Shown: positions 3,059 to 5,953 of the stretch, in pieces
Layout: every line of letters starts with the position of its first letter
How positions within the stretch are numbered: position 1 is the first letter of the stretch
Assembly: GCA_025454395.1 (NCBI GenBank)
Contig: JALOOM010000003.1
Coordinates: 124,001 to 188,000 of the forward strand
Source: Elainella sp. Prado103
GTDB taxonomy: Bacteria; Cyanobacteriota; Cyanobacteriia; Elainellales; Elainellaceae
Length of the DNA stretch: 64,000 nucleotides
Direction: 5' to 3'
Notes under the pieces: generated by a model
Databases searched by the model: none
What the model was told of the DNA's origin: nothing
What the model saw: only the letters and a program-made list of their open reading frames with translations
Made by a program: the position numbers and the translations under genes

Positions 3059-3613
3059 ATGGCTTTGAGTGCCAGCCAAATGATGGAGAAAGTAGTTCAA
3101 CGGGTCAATTTTACAACTGACGACCAACAAATCCTCAAACAGCAAGCAGATTGGGGTTTACGAGTTGCCCCTGAAATGGCGGATGCATTCTATGCCTACC
3201 TCGGAAAAGATACGGAAATGAGCACCATTTTGAATGCTTCTGAAGGCAGAATGCATCGTTTAAGAGAAACATTTGTGCAATGGTTCCATGAAATGTTTAC
3301 GGGAATTGATGATTGGGGTGAGGCTTACGCTGAACGACGCTGGAAGATTGGACTTGCCCATGTTCGGATTGGCATTTACCCAGAACATGTTGTGCCTGCA
3401 ATGGCTGCGATCGTGCAGGAAGTCGGAGTAAAACTACGAGCCGAGGGATGTTCCGATGATCTTCAAACTGCACTCAGCAAAATTTGCATGATTGATTTGG
3501 CCTTCATTGAACAAGCATACATTGAAGTTTCTTCTGCCGCTGTATTACGCGAAACTGGCTGGAGTGCAGGACTGTTTAAGCGCCTTGTGGTTACAGGTGC
3601 AAGTGCTATGTAG
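3059..3613 (+). CDS. Protoglobin-domain protein (probable haem-binding sensor)
   Basis: A 184-residue single-domain globin of the protoglobin / globin-coupled-sensor type. The stretch WKIGLAHVRIGI (95-106) carries the conserved proximal histidine of the family, His101, within the IGxxHxxxGI pattern. There is no attached kinase, cyclase or chemotaxis domain, so any signal must pass to a partner. The frame is open for 100 codons upstream, but the ATG at 3059 is preceded by AGGGAG at a good distance and begins where homology begins. It is the first gene of a same-strand cluster with a roadblock protein, a small GTPase and a DUF4388 protein, which suggests an O2/NO/CO or redox input. The ligand is inference. 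Confidence 0.85.
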   Translation: MALSASQMMEKVVQRVNFTTDDQQILKQQADWGLRVAPEMADAFYAYLGKDTEMSTILNASEGRMHRLRETFVQWFHEMFTGIDDWGEAYAERRWKIGLAHVRIGIYPEHVVPAMAAIVQEVGVKLRAEGCSDDLQTALSKICMIDLAFIEQAYIEVSSAAVLRETGWSAGLFKRLVVTGASAM

Positions 3614-3713
3614 ATGCCATTTTAAGCATCATCTGGAACATTCAAAGGAATTGAACTTATTCGTTCAAGATACCAATCTAGATCACCTCAGAAACTCAAA
3701 AAGGAACAACTCA

Positions 3714-4085
3714 ATGGCCATCAACACTGAAAAATTAGGGATCGTATTGCAAAATTTTGTCACCGCAACCAGTGATGTGCAAGGAGCAGCATTAGTTACA
3801 CCCGATGGACTCCCATTGGCAGCCAGTCTACCAGGCGGTATGGATGATGAGCGGGTCTCTGCAATGTCGGCTGCAATGTTATCCCTCGGTGAACGGATTG
3901 GCTCAGAACTGGGTAGAGGCGGAATCGATCGAATTTTCGTAGAAGGTAATCAAGGGTATGGCATCTTGACCAGTTGTGGCGAGGATGCCGTTTTCCTGGT
4001 ATTGGCCAACTCAGCCGCCAAGCAAGGCGTTTTGATGCTAGAAATTAAACGGGCAGTTTCAGAACTCAAGCTCCTGCTGGCTTAA
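3714..4085 (+). CDS. Roadblock/LC7-domain protein
   Basis: A 123-residue protein covering one roadblock/LC7 domain. It shows the family features: an early helix with an AALVTPDGLPLAAS strand pair, a central helix rich in small residues (SAMSAAMLSLGERIGSEL) and a final helix LMLEIKRAVSELKLLLA. Proteins of this family (MglB, CvnB) bind small Ras-like GTPases as dimers and can act as activating proteins. The start at 3714 follows AAAGGAAC. The frame is open upstream, overlapping the protoglobin gene, but the extension lacks homology. The gene sits 100 nt after the protoglobin gene and about 390 nt before the GTPase, its probable partner. Confidence 0.88.
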   Translation: MAINTEKLGIVLQNFVTATSDVQGAALVTPDGLPLAASLPGGMDDERVSAMSAAMLSLGERIGSELGRGGIDRIFVEGNQGYGILTSCGEDAVFLVLANSAAKQGVLMLEIKRAVSELKLLLA

Positions 4086-4254
4086 CGATCAGCTTAACCT
4101 AACAATTGGCTTACCAATTGGCTTAAAAGACTTTACTGAACGGGACGGTTCTTGCAAAACTTCTCGAATGACTTCTCGAATAGCTAAATGCTGCATTCTC
4201 GAATAGAGCTGAGTCGAGATGTCAACCTAAAGTTACCGACTGAAGAACTGTCCC

Positions 4255-4326
4255 ATCTATGCTAAATCTATGCTAAATCTATGCTGATTAGTTCATTGCT
4301 GATTAGTTCATTGCTGATTAGCTCAT
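4255..4326. repeat. Two adjacent tandem arrays (11-nt and 15-nt units)
   Basis: ATCTATGCTAA is repeated about 2.7 times (4255-4284) and runs into GCTGATTAGTTCATT repeated about 2.9 times (4283-4326). They lie in the roughly 390-nt spacer 4086-4478 between the roadblock and GTPase genes. The rest of that spacer is also repetitive (short duplications near 4094-4125 and 4158-4195) and holds no gene. Confidence 0.8.
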
Positions 4327-4478
4327 CAGAACCCTGCCCTGTCCTGTCAATCCATTCAACTAATCCATTCAACTGATCCAGTCTTATCCATCAGTCATGG
4401 CTAATCCATCAGTTAGTCTCATTGATTAGGCTAGCTCACTCATCAGACTGGGTCATCAACTATGCTGGGTAACTATTC

Positions 4479-5024
4479 ATGGAAATAATGCGTCTCGTTG
4501 TGACGGGCCCAGTTGGAGCGGGCAAGTCCACTTTTATTCGATCGGTCAGCGAAATTGAAGTCGTAGACACCGATCGACGCGCAACCGACGAAACCGCCGC
4601 CCTCAAACCACGCACTACAGTTGCATTTGATTTTGGCCGGTTGCAGTTTGGTGCCGATAGTGCGCTGCATTTATACGGTACACCTGGGCAATCACGGTTT
4701 GATTTTATGTGGGATATTTTGATCCGCAAAGCCCACGCTTATATTCTGCTGGTGGCTGCCCACCGTCCCGATGAATTCCACTACGCCCGTCGCATTCTCA
4801 CCTTTATGAAGCAGCGATCCCAGGCTCCCATGATCATCGGCTTAACTCACACCGATCAACCGGATGCTTGGAATGAAGAAACTATTACCGCTGCGCTTGG
4901 CTTTTTTCCTCCCCAAACTTGTCCACCCATCGTGATTGTCAATGCAACCCGCACGGAATCAGTAGCCCAAGCAGTGCTCACCCTCGTTCAACATCTCATG
5001 ATGAGTCAGTCCTGTCTGGTCTAA
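4479..5024 (+). CDS. Small Ras/MglA-like GTPase
   Basis: A 181-residue GTP-binding protein. The P-loop is GPVGAGKST (10-18), the G3 region is YGTPGQ (66-71, with the usual Asp replaced, as in MglA/CvnD-like proteins), the G4 motif is THTD (123-126, a variant of T/NKxD) and G5 is NAT (155-157). Thr46-Thr47 in a KPRTTVAFDFG context are likely switch I residues. This matches the bacterial GTPases that pair with roadblock proteins (COG2229, conservon CvnD type). ATG 4479 is used; ATG 4488 is possible. It lies between the roadblock gene and the DUF4388 gene, and is the likely switch of the module. Confidence 0.88.
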   Translation: MEIMRLVVTGPVGAGKSTFIRSVSEIEVVDTDRRATDETAALKPRTTVAFDFGRLQFGADSALHLYGTPGQSRFDFMWDILIRKAHAYILLVAAHRPDEFHYARRILTFMKQRSQAPMIIGLTHTDQPDAWNEETITAALGFFPPQTCPPIVIVNATRTESVAQAVLTLVQHLMMSQSCLV

Positions 5025-5095
5025 CTGAACAACTCTACTTCACTCTCACACTTGATTACCTCCAGAATCTCCAGGAACGAAAAAGGTTAGGCGTT

Positions 5096-5953
5096 ATGGC
5101 TATGAAAGGACGGCTCAGCGAGTTTTCGTTAGCAGAAATTTTTCGATTGATGGAACAAAGCCAGAAGACTGGGTTGTTGACCATCCGCGCATCTCATGAA
5201 ACTTCACAACCGCTGCAAAATTTCTATATTTGGTTTAAGCAAGGGCAGATTGTGGCCGCAGCGAACCGCTTAGATTCGCGTGGATTAGCAACTTTAATTC
5301 ATCAACGAGAATGGCTGGGTGAACAAAGTAAGCCATTATTAGTGGAAGCCTTACAAAGCGATCGTCCTTTGGGGTTGCATTTAAAGGTCAAAGGCTCCCT
5401 CACTGCCGAACAACTCAAGCTGTTGTTTTATACCCAGGTGATGCGGCAAGTATGCAGTATTTTTCGTTTCCCAGAAGGGTGGTTCAGCTTTGAAGCCCAG
5501 GTTCATCTTCCGGTGTCCGAGATGACCGGATTAACGGCTGTTCCGACTGAAGTTACCCTGGAAGGACTGCGCGCCTTACGGGACTGGAGCGCCTTAGCCC
5601 ATAAACTACCCGATCCCAATTCCATGCTGGTGAATACAACACGCGATCAATCCCAATTTCATATTAATCAGATGGAGCGACAGATCTGGGAACTGGCCAA
5701 AAGTAAAGAAACCCTGTTAACCATGGCCACCACTTTGCAGCAATCGATCGAAAAAGTTCAGCAAATTGCCTTTCGGTTGATTCTGGTTGGACTGGTTGAG
5801 GAAGTGCCACTGGTTATTGCTCTACCGAACGAACCCTTAACCGGAGATCTTAGCCATGAACTCTCTACTGCTTCATCCCAGCAGATTAGCCATTCTTTTC
5901 TACAAAACCTGATGGGTTTTCTGAGTGGTAGAACCGTTGCCCAAGCCCATTAA
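5096..5953 (+). CDS. DUF4388-domain protein (PatA N-terminal-like)
   Basis: A 285-residue protein whose first 110 residues or so match DUF4388: MAMKGRLSEFSLAEIFRLME, then TGLLTIR and a FYIWFKQGQIVAA strand pair. In cyanobacteria and myxobacteria this domain is found at the N-terminus of PatA/PixG-like regulators. The C-terminal part is helical and has no recognised domain; no receiver or DNA-binding domain is visible. An open frame extends upstream into the GTPase gene, but the ATG at 5096 gives the family N-terminus (ATG 5102 is an alternative). It starts 71 nt after the GTPase stop. By position it is the candidate output of the GTPase module. Confidence 0.82.
   Translation: MAMKGRLSEFSLAEIFRLMEQSQKTGLLTIRASHETSQPLQNFYIWFKQGQIVAAANRLDSRGLATLIHQREWLGEQSKPLLVEALQSDRPLGLHLKVKGSLTAEQLKLLFYTQVMRQVCSIFRFPEGWFSFEAQVHLPVSEMTGLTAVPTEVTLEGLRALRDWSALAHKLPDPNSMLVNTTRDQSQFHINQMERQIWELAKSKETLLTMATTLQQSIEKVQQIAFRLILVGLVEEVPLVIALPNEPLTGDLSHELSTASSQQISHSFLQNLMGFLSGRTVAQAH

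Follow-up and report, generated by a model that had tools for sequence, protein, structure and literature searches.

A four-gene set of the cyanobacterium Elainella sp. Prado103 is considered here to encode a gas- or redox-gated small-GTPase switch that would act, through a PATAN protein, on the type IV pilus motor. The set lies at 3059-5953 of a 64,000-nucleotide stretch, the window, which comprises positions 124001-188000 of contig JALOOM010000003.1 of the 5.84-Mb genome. We give this reading a probability of roughly 0.55, a figure that allows for its being correct in part. The original prediction, made from the letters of the window, proposed four same-strand genes at this place, and their coordinates, their strand (+) and Pfam matches above the cut-offs confirm it. 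They encode a single-domain protoglobin of 184 aa (3059..3613; PF11563, 74.7 bits, cut-off 25), a roadblock/LC7 protein of 123 aa (3714..4085; Robl_LC7 PF03259, 63.8 bits, cut-off 23), an MglA-type small Ras-like GTPase of 181 aa (4479..5024; ATP_bind_1 PF03029, 51.9 bits, cut-off 27; Ras PF00071, 22.6 bits, cut-off 21.6) and a DUF4388 (PATAN) protein of 284 aa (5099..5953; PF14332, 96.3 bits, cut-off 25). The reading is carried by the conserved linkage of these genes, by the residues of the globin ligand site and of the GTPase, and by homologues.

Results

Conservation and linkage

The neighbourhood recurs in more than 100 loci across cyanobacterial genera. In a first survey of forty relatives of the window, which are cyanobacteria of the Leptolyngbya kind, the GTPase was found in 19 and the protoglobin in 14, mostly adjoining. 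A search of named prokaryote genomes with the globin profile then yielded 143 coding stretches, and the neighbourhoods of the best 80 were examined. These best 80 of the 143 matches were all cyanobacterial (Leptolyngbya, Nodosilinea, Phormidium, Nostoc, Calothrix, Fischerella, Scytonema, Coleofasciculus and Moorena are among the genera), and they were accompanied by a roadblock gene in 74/80 loci and by a GTPase gene in 66/80, invariably on the same strand. A survey seeded with the globin is biased to globin-bearing modules; a class survey, in which the same 146 class-level genomes were searched with both the globin and the GTPase profiles, is free of that bias. The GTPase occurred in 57 of these genomes and the globin in 37, all of which have the GTPase, so that the globin was present in 37/57 GTPase-positive and in 0/89 GTPase-negative genomes (Fisher p = 2e-20, kinship ignored); counted by genus, the figures for globin and GTPase were 19 and 29 of 87. 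In the same survey, 35 of 40 globin genes lay no more than about 2.5 kb from the GTPase gene, and the remaining five were on contigs without a GTPase. A roadblock gene was near the globin in 98 of 107 deduplicated globin loci.

Functional linkage predicts that strand is kept while order is shuffled, and the deduplicated roadblock-GTPase modules fit this pattern: 116 of 117 are entirely single-stranded, and the set as a whole falls into 45 different forms by gene content and order, most often globin-roadblock-GTPase-PATAN (GLB-RBL-GTP-PAT). A chance neighbourhood is rejected by the recurrence of the module and by the co-occurrence in the class survey. Mere inheritance of gene order is rejected by the number of forms with the strand kept and by a non-orthologous globin in the same cassette. 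Conservation of the neighbourhood had been set beforehand as the check on which the original prediction would stand or fall, and the four-gene association proved to be strongly conserved. We are highly confident that the genes belong together as a single functional unit. The description of a self-contained four-gene module is nevertheless too narrow. The core consists of the roadblock and GTPase genes, as a rule accompanied by PATAN, and to this core any of three exchangeable partners may be added: the globin, a V4R/TRAPPC3-fold protein or a hemerythrin.

The globin

Aligned with the Bacillus HemAT structure 1or4 (HemAT-Bs), the globin has Tyr45 of helix B10 (codon 3191-3193) at the place of Tyr70, the distal Thr71 (codon 3269-3271) at that of Thr95, and the proximal F8 His101 (codon 3359-3361), as had been claimed, at that of the proximal His123. 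Among 112 homologous globins, Tyr45 and His101 are each found in 112 and Thr71 in 111. In HemAT, Tyr70, Thr95 and His123 make up the O2-reading pocket and the proximal ligand (PMC13401364), and protoglobins bind O2, CO and NO (PMC3680402). The identity of the three residues with those of the HemAT O2 site points to a haem sensor, O2 being a likely ligand. O2 itself, rather than NO, CO or redox state, is somewhat favoured, and we think it probable that the globin serves as a sensor from which the roadblock/GTPase switch receives its input.

Structures matching the globin were 8h17, 5ohe, 2w31 and 1or4, of which the nearest is the Tlr1989 protein (8h17_A, 256.9 bits). Locus L201, which we take to lie on the Thermosynechococcus elongatus BP-1 chromosome, encodes the 8h17_A sequence in the order GLB-RBL-GTP-PAT-hemerythrin. 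The globin of T. elongatus was already listed among the protoglobins in 2006 (PMC1457004), where the entry NP_682779 is presumably Tlr1989; no paper on the function of Tlr1989 was found in the literature searched. The L200 module has a different protoglobin of 30% identity (L200:4466-5017, +; nearest PDB structure 2w31) in a GLB-RBL-PAT-GTP cassette, an apparent case of independent, non-orthologous recruitment as judged by sequence. Globins of the same family without a nearby module gene were observed at L065, L067, L085, L094, L105, L115, L165 and L217, and some of these genomes have a module elsewhere.

The roadblock protein and the GTPase

Profile matches link the roadblock protein to solved roadblock structures, including CvnB5 (3leq), and its Asp31-Gly32 pair is invariant in 140/140 homologues. 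Such an Asp-Gly pair marks the MglB partners of MglA groups 2-5 (PMC4316618), and the protein is a candidate MglB/CvnB-like GTPase-activating protein (GAP) or guanine nucleotide exchange factor (GEF) of the neighbouring GTPase. The GTPase has the P-loop GPVGAGKS (4506-4529), the G3 motif GTPGQ (4677-4691) and the G4 motif THTD (4845-4856), all on the + strand, and its G2 region reads Thr46-Thr47. The P-loop GxxxxGK[ST], the G2 Thr and GTPGQ are present in 136-137 of 137 homologues, and G4 is THxD in 134/137, compared with [NT]KxD.

According to PMC4316618, group 1 is defined by an intrinsic Arg beside the G2 Thr and by TVPGQ, group 5 by GTPGQ with an [NT]KxD G4, and group 2, that of the conservon protein CvnD, by a G4 of NxFD, a G5 of DAR and an operon with a histidine kinase. 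The window GTPase has the features of the MglA family as a whole (P-loop, G2 Thr and PGQ in G3). It differs from group 1 by having Thr46-Thr47, without the group 1 Arg, and GTPGQ in place of TVPGQ; from group 5, as compared by motifs, by having THxD next to GTPGQ; and from group 2 by THxD, by the lack of DAR in the alignment and by the lack of a kinase in the conserved core. With GTPGQ and the G2 Thr but a THxD G4, it fits the mechanism of groups 2-5 and the motif set of no single group. The proposal of a Ras-like GTPase of the kind that pairs with roadblock proteins thus holds as regards the MglA-type motifs and the roadblock linkage, but the protein does not fall neatly into any of the published MglA groups.

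Several loci depart from this arrangement. Two tandem GTPase genes and no PATAN gene are found at L123, L142, L150 and L170 (Leptolyngbyaceae, Symploca), which suggests GTPase pairs. An orphan GTPase (L062:6212-6742, -) has a broken G3, YGIPES in place of YGTPGQ, and is likely a pseudo-GTPase. The two roadblock genes of L073 (6752-7123 and 7862-8233, +), which have a V4R-like gene between them, encode identical proteins and are a recent duplication.

Alternative partners of the core

Clustering of the module neighbours revealed two further families. The first, a V4R-like protein of about 155 aa, is encoded in 49/117 modules (for example L119:9219-9704, +), on the strand of the module in 36/36 copies among named loci. 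Its model (pLDDT 87) resembles the V4R domain of the phenol sensors MopR/PoxR (MopR: Z 16.1, 138 residues aligned, 2.8 A) and the TRAPPC3 of Thor (Z 14.3, 145 aligned, 2.9 A), with a second TRAPPC3/Bet3 match at Z 13.6. The family is poorly covered by Pfam, whose V4R match is only sub-threshold, and a sequence search for its solved structures returned nothing useful. No V4R-like gene was found in a search of the window's whole genome.

The second family, a hemerythrin (domain match 49 bits), adjoins 22/117 modules, for example at L201:8544-8954 (+) and L155:10163-10594 (+), and has a conserved Cys pair in most members; none was found in the window's own module. We count this adjacency as a redox/O2 theme in favour of a gas- or redox-gated switch. 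Among the 20 surveyed genomes that have the GTPase and no globin-family match, 12 have a V4R-like gene and 6 a hemerythrin gene beside the core (G009: fragment only); of the remaining two, one is that of L200 with its divergent protoglobin and one has none of these partners. Because globin-less modules nearly always have V4R or hemerythrin, the globin, V4R-like protein and hemerythrin look like interchangeable inputs. The V4R-like protein and hemerythrin occur together in 0/117 modules (p = 1e-6, kinship ignored). A functional either/or was not borne out by a comparison of independent pairs on the GTPase tree, and the exclusivity may be a matter of clade history.

The PATAN protein

The PATAN domain occupies residues 3-164 (5105-5590, +; PF14332), and a PF14332 match is present in 35/35 module PATAN members. 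It is followed on the same strand by a winged-helix-like domain at residues ~185-235 (5651-5803), recognised by structure and by weak Pfam matches, and by a conserved C-terminal helix at residues ~265-281 (5891-5941). A Pfam search for a receiver domain in this protein found none, whereas three PatA-like paralogues in the same genome join DUF4388 to a receiver. The AlphaFold model (pLDDT 76.9) gave no confident match in a full-length fold search, and a sequence search for solved structures of the family gave nothing useful. Residues 55-118 resembled the N-domain of MshE, a pilus-type ATPase (Z 6.8, 24% identity); this is at background level and has no Pfam support, and the candidate was rejected. 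Type IV pilus-type (T2SSE/PilB-type) ATPases are encoded in the window's genome, and in Synechocystis the PATAN regulators PixG and PixE have PilB1/PilC as interaction partners (PMC12288463, PMC7690835).

Spacing and surroundings

The four genes are all intact and start with ATG at 3059, 3714, 4479 and 5099; the longer frames of the open reading frame (ORF) list are N-terminal read-back beyond these starts. The successive gaps measure 100, 393 and 74 nt. Scanning the window module for promoters and terminators gave no signal above shuffles, and its operon status therefore rests on spacing and conservation. The 393-nt spacer (4086..4478) consists of five adjacent short tandem repeats with periods of 11-15 nt. 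At L113, with the order GLB-RBL-V4R-GTP-PAT, the corresponding gap is occupied by the V4R-like gene. A decayed or hidden V4R gene in the window's spacer was rejected, as the spacer has tandem repeats instead of such a frame and the genome has no V4R match.

Upstream, the set is bounded by a tRNA-Arg(CCT) gene on the opposite strand (2378-2453), beyond which lies hisG (1697-2347); a small ORF and a tocopherol-cyclase gene follow downstream on the other strand. Elsewhere, an NB-ARC/TPR (STAND-type) gene was observed 3′ of the module at L061:4665-6542 (-) and at six other loci, on the module's strand in 8/8 cases and at a median distance of 55 nt.

Discussion

We propose the following mechanism. 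The haem globin, probably a dimer like other protoglobins, would bind O2 or another diatomic ligand at its HemAT-like site, change conformation and act on the roadblock homodimer. As a GAP and/or GEF, the homodimer would control which nucleotide the MglA-like GTPase carries. In one of its nucleotide states the GTPase would engage the PATAN-winged-helix protein. Because this protein lacks the receiver domain of its PatA/PixG relatives, its signal would be taken from the GTPase and not from phosphate; the simplest interpretation is a pilus-motor regulator in which binding of the GTPase has taken over from phosphorylation as the switch. The PATAN protein may in turn act on the type IV pilus motor (PilB/PilC), and surface motility or its polarity would be adjusted to oxygen or redox state. 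In relatives, the V4R/TRAPPC3-fold protein or the hemerythrin may serve as a further or alternative input. The identity of the ligand, the contact of globin with roadblock, that of GTPase with PATAN and the pilus output are what we infer here, and we regard the odds on the pilus motor as the output as even. The original prediction of a globin that replaces the kinase as input, with DUF4388 as output, is partly supported, and it is the best-supported reading in view of conservation, residues and homologues.

Several observations weigh against this proposal. Gene linkage indicates functional association but does not tell which way the signal runs. Many modules have no globin, and in 9/107 loci the globin has no module neighbours, so that the switch can do without it. 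The equivalent of Thr71 is Met in the divergent globin of L200. The canonical diiron motif of hemerythrins is H-HxxxE-HxxxH-HxxxxD (PMC9388753), but full-length module hemerythrins read H-HxxxE-NxxxH-HxxxxD, and the replacement of one diiron His by Asn makes their O2 binding unsure. As regards the output, a review of cyanobacterial pili (PMC12288463) makes no mention of aerotaxis, and the winged-helix-like region of the PATAN protein means that a DNA-binding output is possible.

This last point leads to the alternative that survives best, although we consider it unlikely: the GTPase would gate a DNA-binding PATAN-winged-helix regulator, and gene expression, not the pilus, would be adjusted to O2 or redox state. 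Residues ~185-235 match winged-helix and related helix-turn-helix (HTH) structures, with a best Z of 7.2 (DosR), several PATAN members have weak Pfam matches to winged HTH domains (best E 1.3e-4), and receiver-winged-HTH partners have been predicted for the systems of MglA group 3 (PMC4316618). However, this stretch is short, and its Z does not rise above the background expected of small helical domains. The PatA-like paralogues that do carry a receiver also align across it, and those cyanobacterial PATAN regulators that have been studied to date exert their effect on PilB1/PilC.

It is less likely still that the module concerns polarity or cell pattern, the GTPase setting cell polarity or filament pattern and the haem sensing NO, CO or redox instead of O2. 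Polarity in Myxococcus is set by MglA/MglB, PatA, another PATAN protein, takes part in heterocyst patterning (PMC4316618), and CO and NO are, as noted above, protoglobin ligands besides O2; but the occurrence of the module extends to unicellular lineages without heterocysts, Thermosynechococcus among them, and the distal Tyr/Thr pair favours O2. The weakest alternative, in which the globin detoxifies or stores a gas (NO, peroxynitrite or O2) and is co-expressed with the switch without signalling to it, finds precedent in single-domain globins, which are often enzymes, and in the nitrite reductase and peroxynitrite isomerisation activities that PMC4020757 describes for Methanosarcina protoglobin, but is improbable given the near-perfect co-occurrence of the globin with a signalling GTPase, the substitution of other sensor-like proteins for the globin in the same position, the independent recruitment of a second globin (L200) and the retention of the HemAT sensing residues.

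To our knowledge, the input of most prokaryotic MglA-type GTPases is not known. If the gas- or redox-gated switch is correct, a bacterial small-GTPase signalling pathway would have a defined sensory ligand, and the globin of Thermosynechococcus, a motile cyanobacterium used in the laboratory, whose structure (8H17) is solved and for which no role was found, would gain a function; cyanobacteria would direct their surface movement according to oxygen or a related gas, with a GTPase and not a kinase as the relay. A wider version, which we regard as tentative and rather doubtful, is that a haem globin signals directly via GTPase and roadblock to type IV pili in an aerotaxis-like response that uses no kinase or methyl-accepting protein and has modular input, the V4R/TRAPPC3-fold proteins being alternative regulators and a bacterial counterpart of TRAPP-roadblock-Rab.

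Comparison with known systems

A switch of the MglA/MglB type with haem-globin input and PATAN output is a variant of a known switch type. The MglA-MglB pair of Myxococcus xanthus and Thermus (group 1) likewise joins a small Ras-like GTPase to a roadblock protein and controls type IV pilus or gliding polarity. However, the window GTPase lacks the intrinsic G2 arginine finger and has GTPGQ, not TVPGQ, with a THxD G4, and the cyanobacterial set is linked to globin, V4R, hemerythrin and PATAN genes, not to Frz chemosensory input. The actinobacterial conservon CvnA-D (group 2) resembles it in joining sensor, roadblock and GTPase in one operon, in a G4 without the usual Lys and in the likeness of the roadblock protein to CvnB5. 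In contrast with the conservon, the cyanobacterial core has no histidine kinase, no DUF742 gene was seen in it, and its module has a haem globin, V4R or hemerythrin input together with PATAN.

The original prediction held that no described system has this gene order, which is correct only in part. PATAN genes near MglB/MglA (groups 1 and 5) were reported by Wuichet and Sogaard-Andersen (2014; PMC4316618), citing Makarova (2006), with cyanobacteria among the holders of group 5, and the T. elongatus globin had been catalogued and crystallised. That roadblock-GTPase-PATAN association is reported as occasional and without a sensor, and the words "globin", "V4R" and "hemerythrin" are absent from the text of PMC4316618. 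No description was found that connects globin, V4R or hemerythrin with the switch; in the open-access literature, to which the search was confined with subscription papers outside it, no paper brings together any four of globin, V4R, roadblock, GTPase and cyanobacteria.

The response regulators PixG, PixE, LsiR and PatA share the cyanobacterial PATAN domain, and PixG and PixE bind the pilus motor PilB1/PilC, but they carry a receiver domain under phosphorylation or photoreceptor control, unlike the window protein. HemAT and other globin-coupled sensors share the sensor-type globin, with the equivalents of Tyr70/Thr95/His123 kept, and T. elongatus Tlr1989 (PDB 8H17) is a direct orthologue of the window globin in the same operon. 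The window globin is single-domain, however, and its partner would be a separate roadblock/GTPase pair, not a fused methyl-accepting chemotaxis protein, kinase or cyclase. Finally, the TRAPPC3/V4R-fold protein that adjoins roadblock and GTPase genes in many relatives recalls the TRAPP/Ragulator-like regulators of Asgard archaea (TRAPPC3, roadblock and Rab; PMC10933270), whose genes were generally not in shared operons in the one archaeon examined. The cyanobacterial set differs in being bacterial and in one operon, in having the ligand-binding V4R domain of MopR/PoxR as the nearest fold, and in the absence of this protein from the window, and its GEF role is putative; such a partner beside bacterial roadblock and GTPase genes bears on the origin of GTPase control of the TRAPP/Ragulator type.

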